Origin: a virus
Length of the DNA: 20,139 nt
Direction: 5' to 3' (one strand)
IMG/VR virus record: IMGVR_UViG_3300032820_000160
Location: 1 to 20,139 of that record
The position numbers and the translations under genes are program-made. The notes below the pieces were generated by a model. That model searched no databases. It had not been told where the DNA came from and saw only the letters and a list, made by a program, of their open reading frames with translations. Below are positions 3,319-18,028 of this stretch, piece after piece; the stretch's first letter is position 1, and every line of letters starts with the position of its first letter.

Positions 3319-4853
3319 CAGACCTTAGCTTTGAATATGTCGCGGGAGTGCATCGCGCAGAAACGCGCGGACTTAACGAGCCGACGTTCGACCTTTCCGA
3401 TCCGCATAGTTGGCAGCAAATATTTGGCGGTGAGACCGCGTCGCATTCCGGCGTGACGGTCACAGCGAAAAGCGCGCTAGAATATTCTCCGGTCTGGCAG
3501 GCAGTGAACTTGATTTCCGGCGACGTGGCAAAACTGCCACTCAATATATACAGCAGGCTACCAGACGGTACGAAAGCAGTTGACAGGTCACACCCAGCGC
3601 AGAAGGTGCTGCGGCGGTATGCCAACCCGGGCATGTCTGCGTTTAAATTCTGGCGGAGGATGATGGTGCACGCTCTGATCTGGAATAACGCTTATGCTAA
3701 AATCTTCCGCAACGCCCGCGGCGAAGTCACCGAGCTGCTTCCGCTGCTGCCCGACAGAACGCGACCAGAAGCGACCGCGGACGGCATCGTATACGCTAGT
3801 GAAATAGGCGGCGAACTTCGCGCATACTTTCCCCACGAGATATTCCATATAGAAGGCATCTCAGTCAACGGGCTGGCAGATTGCGAACTGGTCAGCAACG
3901 CGAGGCACTCATGGGGCCTGGGGCTGGCGTCAGAACGGTTTGCGAGCAGGTTCTTTGCAAGCGGCGGCAGAATCGGCGGCATACTGGAGCTACCGCTAGG
4001 TATGCCAAAGATCGCACGAGACACGATTGAAGAAGGGTTCCGCCGCACGTACGAGAGAGATGACAGCGCGTTCAAGACCGTCATTTTGCGCGACTCGGCA
4101 AAGTTTCACGCCGGCCAGTTCGACCCGCAAAAAGGCCAGTTGGTCGAAAGCCGCAAGGAACAAGTCCGCGATGTGGCGCGCTGGTACAACCTGCCGCCGC
4201 ACAAACTCGGCGACGATACGCGCGTGAGTTACAACAGCCTGGAGCAAGAAAACAGAAGCTACCTTGATTCAACATTGTCGCACTGGTTGCGAACAATCGA
4301 GGGTGAAGCAAACGTGAAATGCCTGCTTACCAAGGAGCAAGCCACCGACTCGCATTACGCTGAATATAATACTGACGCATTTATCGCCGCCGATATCAAG
4401 ACGCAAACGGAAATCGGGCGACTAGAAATAGATATGGGAACCCTAAGCCCGGACGAATTCCGCGCGATGAAAAACCGCACGGCGCGCAAAGACGGCCGCG
4501 GCGGACTGTATCGCGAGCCAGCCGCAAATCACACCGTATCTGCCGCCGACAATAGCGACAAAGAGCGCGGGGCTATTCTAGCAATTCTGAGGAGGACCAC
4601 TCGCCGACTATCCAAGCAGTCGCCGGCGCGATTTGTAAAATGGGTGGACTACCTAGCGCGTAAGGAATTCGAATCTGATTTCTTGCAGGAAGTTCCAGGG
4701 GCAACGGCGGAACACGCGCGCCGCCGGGTCGCGCCGATAATAGACGGACTAGTGGCCTGTATCTTCTTGCCGCAAGAAGAGATCTCAAGCGCGGTGCTAG
4801 GGTTTTGTGAAACACAAACGGAGAAAATCAATGCAGCGATTTGTAACGAGTAA
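3315..4853 (+). CDS. portal protein, HK97 family
   Basis: The portal forms the dodecameric ring at one capsid vertex through which DNA enters and leaves. The 512 residues show the family pattern SPVWQAVNLISGDVAKLPL near residues 57-75, WRRMMVHALIWNNAYAKI, the stem-region text LLPLLPDRTRPE, and VARWYNLPPHKLGD followed by YNSLEQENRSYLDSTLSHWL. A basic, helical C-terminal extension (about 410-512) is probably internal or tail-facing and is less conserved. I chose ATG 3315, which overlaps the terminase stop (ATGA); an in-frame ATG at 3282 adds 11 residues inside the terminase gene. The end overlaps the protease gene by 23 bases. Confidence 0.93.
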   Translation: MTDLSFEYVAGVHRAETRGLNEPTFDLSDPHSWQQIFGGETASHSGVTVTAKSALEYSPVWQAVNLISGDVAKLPLNIYSRLPDGTKAVDRSHPAQKVLRRYANPGMSAFKFWRRMMVHALIWNNAYAKIFRNARGEVTELLPLLPDRTRPEATADGIVYASEIGGELRAYFPHEIFHIEGISVNGLADCELVSNARHSWGLGLASERFASRFFASGGRIGGILELPLGMPKIARDTIEEGFRRTYERDDSAFKTVILRDSAKFHAGQFDPQKGQLVESRKEQVRDVARWYNLPPHKLGDDTRVSYNSLEQENRSYLDSTLSHWLRTIEGEANVKCLLTKEQATDSHYAEYNTDAFIAADIKTQTEIGRLEIDMGTLSPDEFRAMKNRTARKDGRGGLYREPAANHTVSAADNSDKERGAILAILRRTTRRLSKQSPARFVKWVDYLARKEFESDFLQEVPGATAEHARRRVAPIIDGLVACIFLPQEEISSAVLGFCETQTEKINAAICNE

Positions 4854-5439
4854 GCCAGTTGAGGCGCGGCAAGAAGATGGTGTGACTGTGTTGAGCGGTT
4901 ACGCCGCGGTGTTTTACGATCCGACTGACGCCGGGACAGAGTTCGAATTATTCGATGGGTTTGTTGAGCGTATTTTGCCGGGTGCATTTTCGGCAGCAAT
5001 GGTCCACGATGATGTTCGAGCGTTGTTCAATCATTCGCCCGACATGATTCTAGGTCGAAACAAAGCTGGAACACTTAGACTGAAAGAAGACAACGTAGGC
5101 CTGCTGTATGAAATCGACCTTCCGCCTACTCAAGTCGGCCGCGACGTTGCAGCGTCAGTGGATCGCGGCGACGTGACTGGAAGCAGTTTTGCGTTTCAGA
5201 TTCAGGAGCAAAACCGGCGAACAACAAACGCCGGAATTGACGTGCGAGAACTCTGTCAGGTGAGCTTGTTCGACGTGGGGCCGTGTTCATTTCCCGCGTA
5301 CTCGTCAACGAGCGTGTCAGCAAGAACAGGACAGACAGACGGCGAAGTGATCGCCATTAAGGCCGAACTAGAGTCCCGCAAAAAAACAAGGGAGAGCGTG
5401 CGGCGCAGGTTGATGCTGATCGAAAAGGGATTGACTTAA
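4831..5439 (+). CDS. prohead maturation protease, HK97 (U35) family
   Basis: This serine protease is packaged in the prohead and cleaves the capsid protein's delta domain and itself. The 202-residue protein carries the catalytic His in FNHSPDMILGR (His68) and the nucleophile in VTGSSFAF (Ser119, the Ser before Phe). The N-terminus has the expected GYAAVFYDPTD and FVERILPGAF strands. The C-terminal tail from about residue 165 is charged and helical. ATG 4831 is chosen because GGAG lies 6 bases upstream; a GTG at 4807 is in frame but lacks support. It overlaps the portal end and precedes the capsid gene, the usual order. Its last codons contain the -35 of a candidate capsid-gene promoter. Confidence 0.93.
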   Translation: MQRFVTSKPVEARQEDGVTVLSGYAAVFYDPTDAGTEFELFDGFVERILPGAFSAAMVHDDVRALFNHSPDMILGRNKAGTLRLKEDNVGLLYEIDLPPTQVGRDVAASVDRGDVTGSSFAFQIQEQNRRTTNAGIDVRELCQVSLFDVGPCSFPAYSSTSVSARTGQTDGEVIAIKAELESRKKTRESVRRRLMLIEKGLT

Positions 5440-5460
5440 TCGCTGTCGCGCAGGTATTAT
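5431..5460 (+). promoter_or_regulatory. candidate sigma70-type promoter for the capsid gene
   Basis: TTGACT (5431-5436) and TATTAT (5455-5460) each match the consensus at five of six bases and are 18 bases apart. Transcription would start near 5467, giving a leader of about 145 bases before the capsid ATG. The -35 lies in the last codons of the protease gene. Confidence 0.6.
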
Positions 5461-5503
5461 GAAGGTGCAATTCAGGATTTAACTATCCACGGAAGCGACC
5501 CCG

Positions 5504-5572
5504 CAGGGCAGTAGCTTTCACTAGCCGCGAACGCAATGTTTCATGGCCGGTGCAAGCTACTGCCCTGTTTTT
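5504..5572 (+). terminator. long stem-loop with T-run in the capsid gene leader
   Basis: The perfect 14-bp arms CAGGGCAGTAGCTT (5504-5517) and AAGCTACTGCCCTG (5554-5567) enclose 36 bases that can pair further after single mismatches. Five T (5568-5572) follow directly, as in an intrinsic terminator, yet the capsid ATG is only 40 bases downstream and no second promoter is seen. It could be a partial terminator or attenuator, an RNase III-type processing or mRNA-stabilising hairpin, or the end of a short RNA started at the promoter 5431-5460. Confidence 0.65.
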
Positions 5573-14641: not shown

Positions 14642-15034
14642 GTGAAGAAAATCACACTGATCGAAGAGAGAAACGCGAGGCGGGCCGCCCGCGCTTTATT
14701 GCGTAAACGTAAACGCAATGGCGATGAGGCAACGCATCGCGGCGTTGGCGATATTCTGAGCGACATGATCCAGTCGCGAACGGGCGCCCCGCCCTGCCAG
14801 AAGTTCTGCAGGGCGACCGCGGGCAAGATGAATTCCTGGGGGGCCGCTAGGTGTCGTGAAAACTGCGACGAACTCGCCGCCGAAATACGCGCGAACGTGT
14901 CGCGGATGGGTTGGGCGTCCGCATTCGGCACCAAGGCTATCGCCGCGGTTGTGGAGGCAGCGGCAGGCGATGCGGTTTATCGCGCGCTGGTCCTTCGCGC
15001 GTGCGAACTGAGCGACTCGCGGCCGCAAGGCTAA
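14642..15034 (+). CDS. small basic protein with two CX3C pairs, unknown
   Basis: This 130-residue protein starts at GTG with AAGGGAAG about 8 bases upstream. The N-terminus is very basic (ERNARRAARALLRKRKRNGD), then comes HRGVGDILSDMIQS and the pairs PPCQKFC and RCRENC (about 56-81), which could bind one metal ion. The C-terminal helices are Ala-rich. GVGD followed by a Cys-pair segment recalls small uncharacterised proteins at the ends of tail operons, from memory only. Codons 20-26 contain the operator-like 20-bp dyad (14699-14718). This is the last gene of the structural block. Confidence 0.7.
   Translation: MKKITLIEERNARRAARALLRKRKRNGDEATHRGVGDILSDMIQSRTGAPPCQKFCRATAGKMNSWGAARCRENCDELAAEIRANVSRMGWASAFGTKAIAAVVEAAAGDAVYRALVLRACELSDSRPQG
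14699..14718. promoter_or_regulatory. operator-like 20-bp dyad, copy 1 (inside a gene)
   Basis: TTGCGTAAACGTAAACGCAA is symmetric at eight of ten base pairs (arms TTGCGT and ACGCAA, centre ACGT). It matches the intergenic copy at 18692-18711 at 19 of 20 bases. It also reads as codons for LRKRKR, so selection on the protein cannot be ruled out. Confidence 0.4.
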
Positions 15035-15116
15035 TTCCTTGTGGTCCGCAGTAACCCAGTTGTGCGCTACCTGATGAGTTTCGCGCGCGCTAGTGTGTCC
15101 TTAATCCCCCGGCGGT

Positions 15117-15192
15117 ATGCGCGGGTATGCGCGGGTATGCGCGGGTATGCGCGGGTATGCGCGGGTATGCGCGAGGTATGCGCGAGGTATGC
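15117..15192 (+). repeat. tandem array of a 10-bp unit
   Basis: Five exact copies of GCGGGTATGC (15121-15170) are preceded by a degenerate copy (GGCGGTATGC, 15111-15120) and followed by two 11-base copies GCGAGGTATGC (15171-15181 and 15182-15192). Ten bases is close to one helical turn, so bound proteins would line up on one face. The array lies about 110 bases upstream of a strong promoter, in a stretch with no credible gene. Iteron-like binding sites or a replication origin element are possible. Confidence 0.9.
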
Positions 15193-15245
15193 GCGGGGCT
15201 GTCTCAACCGACAAACAACCGCCAGACCTATCGAAACCACACTAA

Positions 15246-15345
15246 TCCGCCCCCAGCTAGGAACCAGAAAAAAAACACACAAAATTACAGATGCGGACTT
15301 GCGGTGCCGATTAATACTGTGTATAATTAGGGCATGACAACAACG
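15246..15345 (+). repeat. promoter module, copy 1
   Basis: This 100-bp segment matches 15846-15945 at 96 of 100 bases, exactly 600 bp apart, with no gaps. It comprises TCCGCCCCCAGCTAGG, an A-rich tract (15268-15284) and the promoter up to ATGACAACAACG. The differences are at 15277, 15305, 15307 and 15312. Confidence 0.97.
15299..15327 (+). promoter_or_regulatory. sigma70-type promoter, copy 1
   Basis: TTGCGG (15299-15304), a 17-base spacer and a perfect TATAAT (15322-15327), with an A-rich tract upstream that could act as UP element. The predicted start site is 15334, the A of an ATG, so the message would be leaderless from that ATG or have a 36-base leader before the better ATG at 15370. 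ATACTGTGTAT (15314-15324), a short dyad, overlaps the -10 and could be an operator. Confidence 0.8.
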
Positions 15346-15369
15346 CAACCCACAACCGGAGTTCAAGCC

Positions 15370-15522
15370 ATGACTATCACCGGATTAAGCCTTGAGGACA
15401 TGATTGACGCGGTCGCCGCACTGGTGCGCAGGGGCGTCCAGTTTCGGGCCTGCAAGCTCGACGAAAAATCACGACCGTCCCTCGATAACACCTGGACGAT
15501 TACGCTGACTGGAGGTTACTAG
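15370..15522 (+). CDS. small orphan protein in first promoter cassette
   Basis: This 50-residue protein begins MTITGLSLEDMIDAVAALVR, a plausible helix, and ends NTWTITLTGGY with strand-like residues. It resembles nothing I can name. ATG 15370 is chosen because GGAG lies 9 bases upstream; the in-frame ATG at 15334 sits on the predicted transcription start and would add MTTTQPTTGVQA as a leaderless product. It is the first gene after promoter copy 1. Confidence 0.6.
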   Translation: MTITGLSLEDMIDAVAALVRRGVQFRACKLDEKSRPSLDNTWTITLTGGY

Positions 15523-15552
15523 CCCCCCCTGTCGCGTTTACCCCCACCCCAC
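15523..15552 (-). other. C-rich tract (G-rich on the opposite strand)
   Basis: Runs of seven, five and four C (15523-15529, 15541-15545, 15547-15550) lie just after the stop of the preceding gene. The complementary strand carries the matching G-runs, which could form a quadruplex with one long loop of about 11 bases. Confidence 0.35.
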
Positions 15553-15569
15553 CACAAGGAATAAGAGAC

Positions 15570-15860
15570 ATGACCATGAGCAACAACCACCGCCGGCAGT
15601 ACATCCTGTCGACAAACGCGCAGTCTCCCAGCGGAAAATGGCTTCTGTTTGTGAACGACTCAGGGGAAGCGACCGCGGACGGGATCATAGACGCTGTCGA
15701 GTATCCCGAAGACATGCGAGAACTGCTGCGTTACTTGGGTGTCGACAGGGTGGAAATGGACGTCGACGACAACGGGACCATGCGCCAAATACCTGTCGAG
15801 TGGATCGGTGACGGCGAACCGCTGGTGGGATCGCGCCGCGCTCTGTCCGCCCCCAGCTAG
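15570..15860 (+). CDS. orphan protein ending inside the second promoter module
   Basis: This 96-residue protein has MSNNHRRQYILSTNAQSPSG, a strand WLLFVNDSG, acidic DAVEYPEDMRELLRYLGVDR and VEMDVDDNG. No family is recognised. AAGGA lies about 11 bases before the ATG. The last four codons and the TAG stop (15858-15860) lie within promoter module copy 2, so insertion or duplication of that module seems to have set the present C-terminus. It is probably co-transcribed with the gene at 15370 from promoter copy 1. Confidence 0.65.
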   Translation: MTMSNNHRRQYILSTNAQSPSGKWLLFVNDSGEATADGIIDAVEYPEDMRELLRYLGVDRVEMDVDDNGTMRQIPVEWIGDGEPLVGSRRALSAPS

Positions 15861-15945
15861 GAACCAGAAAAAAAACCCACAAAATTACAGATGCGGACTT
15901 GCGGCGACGATCAATACTGTGTATAATTAGGGCATGACAACAACG
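15846..15945 (+). repeat. promoter module, copy 2
   Basis: Second copy of the 100-bp module at 15246-15345, 96% identical and exactly 600 bp downstream. The A-tract, the -35, the 17-base spacing, the TATAAT and the ATGACAACAACG end are all kept, while three of the four changes are in the spacer, so the promoter function has been preserved. Confidence 0.97.
15899..15927 (+). promoter_or_regulatory. sigma70-type promoter, copy 2
   Basis: TTGCGG (15899-15904), 17 bases, TATAAT (15922-15927); predicted start at 15934, again the A of an ATG. The dyad ATACTGTGTAT (15914-15924) overlapping the -10 is kept exactly. Confidence 0.8.
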
Positions 15946-15981
15946 AAGCCCAAGCAGAACCCAAACCTGAAAGGACACGAC

Positions 15982-16230
15982 ATGTACGAGATTTCGAACA
16001 ACTTCCACAACACTTTTGCCCGCACCCTTGGAGGACGACTTTCGGAACGACAGGAGAAGCGAATCAAGGCCAAACTCTGCGGGATTTCCGGGTGCTGCTG
16101 CGGCGGCGAAATTGGCGAGCGAGGCCCGCAGACCTGCGAAATTTCTTACGATTCGGACGGTCGCGTGATCGTTACCGAACCGGAAGACGGATCGCTCGCG
16201 AGTTATCTGGCAACGGGATATGACGGCTAA
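15982..16230 (+). CDS. orphan protein with cysteine cluster (MYEISN family 1)
   Basis: This 82-residue protein begins MYEISNNFHNTFARTL, followed by a basic SERQEKRIKAKLCGISGCCC cluster and a strand-rich acidic end ISYDSDGRVIVTEPEDGS. The four cysteines CGISGCCC plus one later (QTCE) might bind metal. ATG 15982 has AAAGGA about 8 bases upstream and the same context as two downstream genes; the in-frame ATG 15934 lies at the predicted transcription start. First gene behind promoter copy 2. Its N-terminal MYEISN is shared with the next gene. Confidence 0.7.
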   Translation: MYEISNNFHNTFARTLGGRLSERQEKRIKAKLCGISGCCCGGEIGERGPQTCEISYDSDGRVIVTEPEDGSLASYLATGYDG

Positions 16231-16258
16231 GTAATACCAGTTCTGGAAAGGACAAGTC

Positions 16259-16501
16259 ATGTATGAGATTTCAAACAAAAAAGCGCGCACGAAGACATCA
16301 GAGATTAAATTTAGCATGCACCTCAAGGACGGCGTTATCACGGTCACGAGTCATGGCAAGAACGGCGAAAAAACACACAAAATTATAGACTCCGCGTCAA
16401 TGTTCTGCTCTGGGTCGTACTATACAGACGAGGAATACCGCGCGGCATTCGCCGCGGTCGAGTGGTCGTCTGAGATAACAGAAGCACACCACGTAATCTG
16501 A
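16259..16501 (+). CDS. orphan protein (MYEISN family 2)
   Basis: This 80-residue protein begins MYEISNKKARTKTSEIKF, then a strand HLKDGVITVTSHGKNGEKTH and a helix TDEEYRAAFAAVEWSS. It has no recognised family. Ribosome-binding segment AAAGGACAAGTCATG is identical to that of the next gene, and the first six residues equal those of the previous gene, so 5' ends seem to have been copied. Bases 16368-16389 share 21 of 22 with the A-rich part of the promoter module (15270-15291). Confidence 0.7.
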   Translation: MYEISNKKARTKTSEIKFSMHLKDGVITVTSHGKNGEKTHKIIDSASMFCSGSYYTDEEYRAAFAAVEWSSEITEAHHVI

Positions 16502-16512
16502 AAGGACAAGTC

Positions 16513-16821
16513 ATGGCATTTCACAAAAGCAATCTTGGGTCAAACGGCTTGCGTATCGCCTCAGACCTCCACGGGTTTGTGGCGACAGCGGACACCGATG
16601 CATGGGAACTCGAGTTCGACCACGGCGGCGAGTCGACGCACGACGCAGCCGGCGAACTCACGGAATATGGCGAATGGTTTGAGGATGAGGCGTTTCCACG
16701 CATCAAAGCGCAGGCGATCCAAGAAACGATCGCCGCCGAGAACGACCTTCGCCGCCAGATGCACGACGCCCGCCGTGCGAGCGTAGGACTTGACCGAGCG
16801 TCGAAAGAGGAAGGCGAGTAA
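16513..16821 (+). CDS. orphan acidic protein
   Basis: This 102-residue protein begins MAFHKSNLGSNGLRIAS, has strands GFVATADTDAWELEFDHG, then a helix from about residue 48 (EYGEWFEDEAFPRIKAQAIQ) that extends through ENDLRRQMHDARRA. Overall acidic. I cannot name it. Start ATG has AAAGGA 7-8 bases upstream. It follows the preceding gene by 11 bases and is probably in the operon of promoter copy 2. Confidence 0.7.
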   Translation: MAFHKSNLGSNGLRIASDLHGFVATADTDAWELEFDHGGESTHDAAGELTEYGEWFEDEAFPRIKAQAIQETIAAENDLRRQMHDARRASVGLDRASKEEGE

Positions 16822-16867
16822 TTACGGCATTGACGACATTTGACAAACCATCTTGAAAGGTAAAGAG

Positions 16868-18028
16868 ATGATCATTGAAGAAAAAGCTATCACCGTGGCT
16901 CAATCGCTTGGATCTTCCGCACGCACCCCCCGTGGTGCCATCCGCTACCTCGCAGGGTGCCAACGTGGGGACATCGCGCGGGCAGTCCGACCCCGGATCA
17001 CCCGGATGAGTCGCGCGCAATACAAACACGACCACGCATCTCGAAAATCCGACCCGGAGGCGAAGCGAGCGATCAAGGACAAGGTGTTTCGTAAGAAATA
17101 TCTGGCGCGACTCCTCCGCGCGGAACGGAGAATCTTGCGGTGCGATTCCGGCCTAGATGCTGCGATGCTCTTCGCAGATGAATACGGCGCGAAGCACAAG
17201 GCATGGCGGGAGTTGCAGAAGCTGCGAGCGACCGTTACGGGAGTCTGGGACCAAACAAAAAATGGCGCGGCGTACCCAATGGGATTTCCGCGCAACCGAA
17301 ACGGAATAATGGTCCCCCTTGCGGATGGCAATCGTGCCTGTGCTGCAACCGCGCGGCGTGCTGGCGTGAAAGTGGTGATGCGGGGGCGCGACTGGTCAGT
17401 TGCTCCGTGCCGAGAAGCGAGCCACCATGAGCATTTCGAAGGTGAAACCGAATGGAGCGGCGGGCGACCAAGCAACTACACTCGCGCCGTCAACAACACT
17501 TGGGTCAGATCAATCGCTGTGATCGTCTCGCCAACAGTCGTCGACTACATGCTGCACGAGACTCGCCACACGGTCACCCTGCCACACGGGCTGCACTGGG
17601 AGCGCGCGCATGAATCTCGCCTGGGCAGGCTGGTCGCCGTGGCGGACGAATGCACCCTGGACGATTTTCATCCTTCCGCCGACGACTTGGTTTCTGGCGG
17701 CGCGCACGTCGCGCAAAAACTGGCCGAAAACCGCGAAGCGAGGCACCGTCTGAGCGCAGAGGTTGCCGCCGAAGCAGCCGATTCGGCTGGAATATACGTC
17801 TGCGCGGCAGATTCCACCCGCGCTGGGAACTGCCCGCAGGGCACGTCCGATTTCGCCGCGCGACACGATCTTGATAGTGCGAAACATTACACAGCGTCAG
17901 ATTTACTGGCGATCGCAAACGGCGAGGCGGGACGAGTCAGGCTGGCCATCAAATCCGCAACCCTTCGACACCACCGCGAATCAGAAAAGGGATTCTGCGT
18001 GATGGCCGATCACTATTGGGACTGTTAG
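16868..18028 (+). CDS. conserved protein of unknown function, basic, with DSTRAGNC motif
   Basis: This 386-residue protein is the largest of the right-hand block. The first half is very basic (KRAIKDKVFRKKYLARLLRA near 73-92) and could bind nucleic acid. The C-terminal part contains CAADSTRAGNCPQGTSDFAA followed by HYTASDLLAIANGEAGRVRL; I recall a DS.RAGNC..GT motif in proteins of planctomycetes, where its function is not known. Ten cysteines and histidines such as HHEHFEGE may bind metal, but no standard finger is seen. ATG 16868 with AAAGG about 9 bases upstream is chosen over a TTG at 16853. It ends in WDC. Confidence 0.65.
   Translation: MIIEEKAITVAQSLGSSARTPRGAIRYLAGCQRGDIARAVRPRITRMSRAQYKHDHASRKSDPEAKRAIKDKVFRKKYLARLLRAERRILRCDSGLDAAMLFADEYGAKHKAWRELQKLRATVTGVWDQTKNGAAYPMGFPRNRNGIMVPLADGNRACAATARRAGVKVVMRGRDWSVAPCREASHHEHFEGETEWSGGRPSNYTRAVNNTWVRSIAVIVSPTVVDYMLHETRHTVTLPHGLHWERAHESRLGRLVAVADECTLDDFHPSADDLVSGGAHVAQKLAENREARHRLSAEVAAEAADSAGIYVCAADSTRAGNCPQGTSDFAARHDLDSAKHYTASDLLAIANGEAGRVRLAIKSATLRHHRESEKGFCVMADHYWDC

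Follow-up and report, generated by a model that had tools for sequence, protein, structure and literature searches.

Tandem early promoters for the host RNA polymerase—A1, A2, and A3—stand at the head of the early small-gene operon in T7-like phages, and in T7 this early region is the first to be transcribed by the host polymerase. T4-type phages carry promoter-early stem-loop (PeSL) cassettes (Arbiol et al. 2010; Comeau et al. 2014), described in PMC4503421 as an early promoter and a stem-loop located between small genes. These cassettes are repeated in a plastic region among small unknown genes and are considered to mediate the shuffling of genes (PMC4503421 and PMC4177764); PMC4177764 also discusses semi-legitimate recombination at regulatory signals. 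Another kind of repeat is found in cluster K mycobacteriophages, in which the start-associated sequences (SAS/ESAS) are short gene-start repeats found only in the non-structural half of the genome, SAS being 13 bp long and present in 11–19 copies at translation starts (PMC3203893).

The locus described here belongs to an uncultivated tailed phage. The window analysed is the whole IMG/VR record (20,139 bp), which is classed as linear and is probably a genome fragment. Its gene order from left to right is HNH endonuclease, terminase, portal, protease, major capsid protein, and tail genes including the tape measure. The last tail-region gene (14642–15034) is followed by a 300-bp non-coding gap and then by small rightward genes up to the end of the record. 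A scan of bacterial genomes found no relatives of the terminase or of gene 1, the first gene past the structural block.

Two copies of a 107-bp direct repeat occupy positions 15246–15352 and 15846–15952 (+ strand), lie 600 bp apart from start to start, and are identical at 101 of 107 positions (E about 2e-42). The initial annotation had reported a 100-bp module duplicated exactly 600 bp apart, and this is borne out and extended to 107 bp; the four differences counted in the first 100 bp (15277, 15305, 15307, and 15312) are correct, and two more lie at 15346 and 15348. The roundness of the 600-bp offset carries no information. The left limit of copy 2 falls in the last codons of gene 2 (15570–15860, + strand, up to 96 aa), to which the repeat indeed supplies the end, namely codons SAPS and the stop TAG, and the right limit lies between the predicted +1 and the next Shine-Dalgarno. 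Because these limits coincide with a gene 3′ end and a 5′ UTR, the copied segment is regulatory sequence, a few codons excepted. The flanks of the two copies do not align, and the flanking genes are unrelated.

Further copies had been proposed as worth seeking in this phage and in relatives. The 20-kb record holds no other full copy, only these two and one 22-nt fragment, a near-copy of the cassette A-rich tract (16368–16389, + strand, 21/22 in the self-comparison) inside gene 4; more may exist outside the record, since it probably holds only part of the genome. Neither near nor distant nucleotide matches turned up in phage records, so no cross-genome conservation backs the promoter, and exact scans of viral contigs with two parts of the cassette were likewise empty. 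Two relatives, L058 and L062, are 51%–73% identical in the proteins compared and are collinear with the window up to 14642–15034, beyond which they lack the cassette and have different genes, among them sugar-metabolism-like ones. A 14-nt cassette match in L062 was treated as chance, the site having no promoter. The cassette region therefore appears lineage-specific as far as seen, the contigs of both relatives being fragments too.

We give a probability of about two in three to the reading that the 107-bp unit is a predicted intergenic early-promoter cassette for a host sigma-70-type RNA polymerase, placed at the head of a rightward early operon. As in the T7-like arrangement, predicted host-polymerase promoters precede small genes, and gene 1 comes from a family found in that region; unlike A1, A2, and A3, the two promoters here are almost identical duplicates, and two genes separate the second from the first. 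The window shows no phage RNA polymerase gene. PeSL cassettes share with the present unit its small size, intergenic position between small unknown genes, promoter-like content, and plastic surroundings, but the cassette has no stem-loop terminator and only two copies, and the structural genes are those of an HK97-like siphovirus rather than of T4. It is not classed as PeSL because the stem-loop feature fails. In placement and presumed role, the cassette resembles semi-legitimate recombination at regulatory signals (PMC4177764). SAS is matched in placement by a different element of this region, a 16–33-bp translation-start repeat at 15969, 16246, and 16500, whereas the cassette is 107 bp long and promoter-like; the sequences are unrelated. 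The cassette is thus a real, well-delimited example of a kind already described and is not categorically new.

Both copies contain a perfect TATAAT and a 17-bp spacer, with an A-rich tract further upstream. Copy 1 has its A-rich tract at 15268–15291, a −35 TTGCGG at 15299–15304, the −10 at 15322–15327, and a predicted +1 at 15334; in copy 2 the −35, −10, and +1 fall at 15899–15904, 15922–15927, and 15934. In pattern form, the promoter type is TATAATTAG. The only other + strand TATAAT motifs in the window are at 4365 and 7321, and the AT content of the A-rich tract reaches the 99.97th percentile. An approximate sigma-70 matrix with generic base frequencies, from which the promoter preferences of the host may differ, ranked the cassette sites second and third among all positions on both strands. 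A strict promoter consensus scan listed neither site, because TTGCGG matches the −35 consensus at only three of six positions. The claimed promoter elements are therefore present as regards the −10, spacer, and A-tract, but the −35 is weak. That all of them are intact is no sign of constraint; with four changes per 100 bases, all 12 hexamer bases would be spared in about 60% of cases by expectation. The short dyad described over the −10 (ATAC-TGT-GTAT) is at chance level, a 4-bp dyad turning up in 37% of cases when these 30 bases are shuffled, and an operator dyad in the cassette was rejected on this ground. With these corrections, the reading of a promoter cassette duplicated ahead of two small-gene sets finds support.

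The best sigma-70-like site of the window lies elsewhere, between the protease and major capsid genes (TTGACT-18-TATTAT, with the −10 at 5455). On its 3′ side is a 28-nt inverted repeat (5504–5531/5540–5567) that is 82% complementary, and the whole segment (5431–5567) resembles a capsid promoter of its own or a regulatory hairpin.

The unit could instead serve DNA recombination or replication, as a gene-exchange repeat or as part of an origin, with its promoter likeness incidental. A tandem array of 8.2 copies of the 10-bp unit GGTATGCGCG (15114–15197, no strand assigned; Tandem Repeats Finder) lies just upstream of copy 1, in the non-coding gap after the last tail-region gene, and is the only tandem array in the window. 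Repeats also cluster in the region: of the eight self-repeats with E < 0.03, four have both copies in or at the edge of the right-hand 5 kb and three have one copy there, whereas no hit with E < 0.01 appeared when shuffled windows were compared with themselves in the same way. However, the array is not repeated at copy 2, the cassette forms no strong stem (folding z-score 0.33) and matches no Rfam family, and TATAAT, 17-bp spacing, and an A-rich tract right before genes are most simply read as a promoter. A role of this kind is accordingly unlikely. Together with a terminator scan, the stem and Rfam results also led to the rejection of a terminator or RNA structure within the cassette. The 10-bp unit is about one helical turn in length, and the array is possibly an iteron-like binding array.

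No terminator-like site was found on the + strand across 15034–15952, and copy 1 transcripts should consequently run through copy 2, which may be redundant for the same reason. Separate control of the second gene set is not supported, since the scan showed no terminator between the copies. Under the promoter reading, host polymerase would most likely start at both copies soon after infection, and initiation at copy 2 would add to read-through from copy 1, giving the downstream small genes more transcript.

The predicted +1 was said to be the A of an ATG, and it is correctly placed in both copies (15334 and 15934); the translated genes, however, probably start further downstream. Each of these ATGs is in frame with the downstream start with no intervening stop, which speaks for leaderless transcription; genes 1 and 3 would then gain N-terminal extensions of 12 and 16 residues (MTTT…), and the codon scores of these extensions are positive. 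Against this, the homologs of gene 1, when aligned, begin at the residue that corresponds to the ATG at 15370, the next one in frame, which stands behind a GGAG (15358–15361). The downstream ATG of gene 3, 15982, is preceded by GAAAGGA (15969–15975) and lies inside a 33-bp segment (15969–16001, + strand; Shine-Dalgarno plus MYEISN codons) repeated at 29 of 33 positions at the start of gene 4 (16246–16278, + strand), such that genes 3 and 4 have a common Shine-Dalgarno and MYEISN start. The first 16 bases of this second copy recur exactly at 16500–16515. The extension common to both cassettes is explained by the DNA duplication, and 12–16 codons are too few for codon statistics. Leaderless starts are hence unlikely, although the codon scores make leaderless isoforms conceivable. 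Judged from sequence, the probable start codons are 15370 for gene 1 and 15982 for gene 3, both preceded by a Shine-Dalgarno of their own, and the 5′ leaders would be 36 and 48 nt long.

Gene 1 (15370–15522, + strand, 50 aa, ending in TITLTGGY) had been called an orphan but is a member of the early-protein family phrog_33188 (profile E 1.7e-8), with both the conserved core and the C-terminal LTGGY present. The family comprises proteins of about 40 residues, mostly in T7-like phages near 40 kb. A tblastn search with the gene 1 protein matched 33 phage records; one with a Klebsiella-phage member matched 151, the majority of them T7-like genomes around 40 kb in size, with some doubtful cases among the weaker matches. 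In Vibrio phages R25D and VEN, annotation at the left end begins with the family member, and in the enterobacterial T7-like phages inspected it lies near ocr or the 0.7 kinase. Members also occur in two metagenomic phages (L066 and L067). Comparison with solved structures gave insignificant matches only. The view of these genes as an early or host-takeover set gains independent support from the homology of gene 1 to T7-like early-region proteins, its base being one protein of 40–50 aa.

GGAGG or a similar motif lies in the codons for the invariant C-terminal TGGY of the family; in L066, L067, L069, and L071 these codons carry the Shine-Dalgarno of the gene that starts just downstream. Part of the protein conservation of the family may thus stem from an RNA signal. 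In gene 1, the corresponding GGAGG (15511–15515, + strand) is stranded, the next ATG being 55 nt away, so that gene 2 has probably taken the place of the original downstream partner.

Codon scores speak for the reading frames annotated for genes 1–5. Genes 2, 3 (15982–16230, + strand, 82 aa), and 4 (16259–16501, + strand, 80 aa) gave no tblastn matches in phages, and no relatives of them were found; nothing significant was obtained in PHROGs, Pfam, or NCBIfam for genes 2–6, including gene 5 (16513–16821, + strand, 102 aa). A 391-aa ORF at 16853–18028 likewise has no convincing relatives in these three databases, in phage records, or in viral contigs. Two further repeats involve coding sequence. 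One is a repeated gene junction (18979–19004/19572–19597, 23 of 26 bases identical), at which two consecutive ORFs both end in WIDGDEE codons. The other links gene 2 (15666–15695) to the portal gene (3768–3797) over 27 of 30 bases in the same frame (EATADGI); this patch is not preserved in the L058 relative of the portal, and it could be a short copied segment or a coincidence.

As to how the two copies arose, they are direct, close together, and 600 bp apart, as would be expected if a whole 600-bp unit of promoter plus genes had been duplicated in tandem and its genes had later diverged or been replaced. Self-comparison of 15353–15845 with 15953–16445, however, shows no similarity beyond the 107 bp, and genes 1 and 2 are unrelated to genes 3 and 4 apart from short stretches. 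With the promoter 94% identical, genes of the same age should still align unless replaced, which makes a whole-unit origin improbable. That the second copy is an assembly artefact of the metagenomic record is very improbable, because the longest exact run common to both copies is 33 nt—so that an assembler with k ≥ 35 sees no repeat, and k-mers of the usual lengths tell the copies apart—and each copy has unique flanks.

Under the promoter-cassette reading, copy 2 may have arisen by recombination at a gene junction, bringing in or re-expressing small genes, and such an event would account for both the copying of the cassette and the stranded Shine-Dalgarno of gene 1. The clustering of self-repeats toward the right-hand end, several of them at gene junctions, and the break in collinearity with the relatives after 14642–15034 also speak for a plastic early region of this kind. 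The duplication was described as recent; an identity of 94%–96% fits this, but no relative that would date it covers the region. As two near-identical direct repeats flank genes 1 and 2, recombination could also delete the 600-bp unit. It is conceivable, if rather unlikely, that the cassettes form a built-in recombination switch, in which exchange excises or restores the gene 1–gene 2 unit and the phage population varies in its early takeover genes under one fixed promoter.

The locus shows how phages may add small early genes, with a regulatory junction being copied and the gene behind it swapped. It also places a previously anonymous small protein in an early-gene family spread across T7-like phages, making it a candidate for studies of host takeover, and the most conserved residues of that family coincide in part with the Shine-Dalgarno of the next gene.
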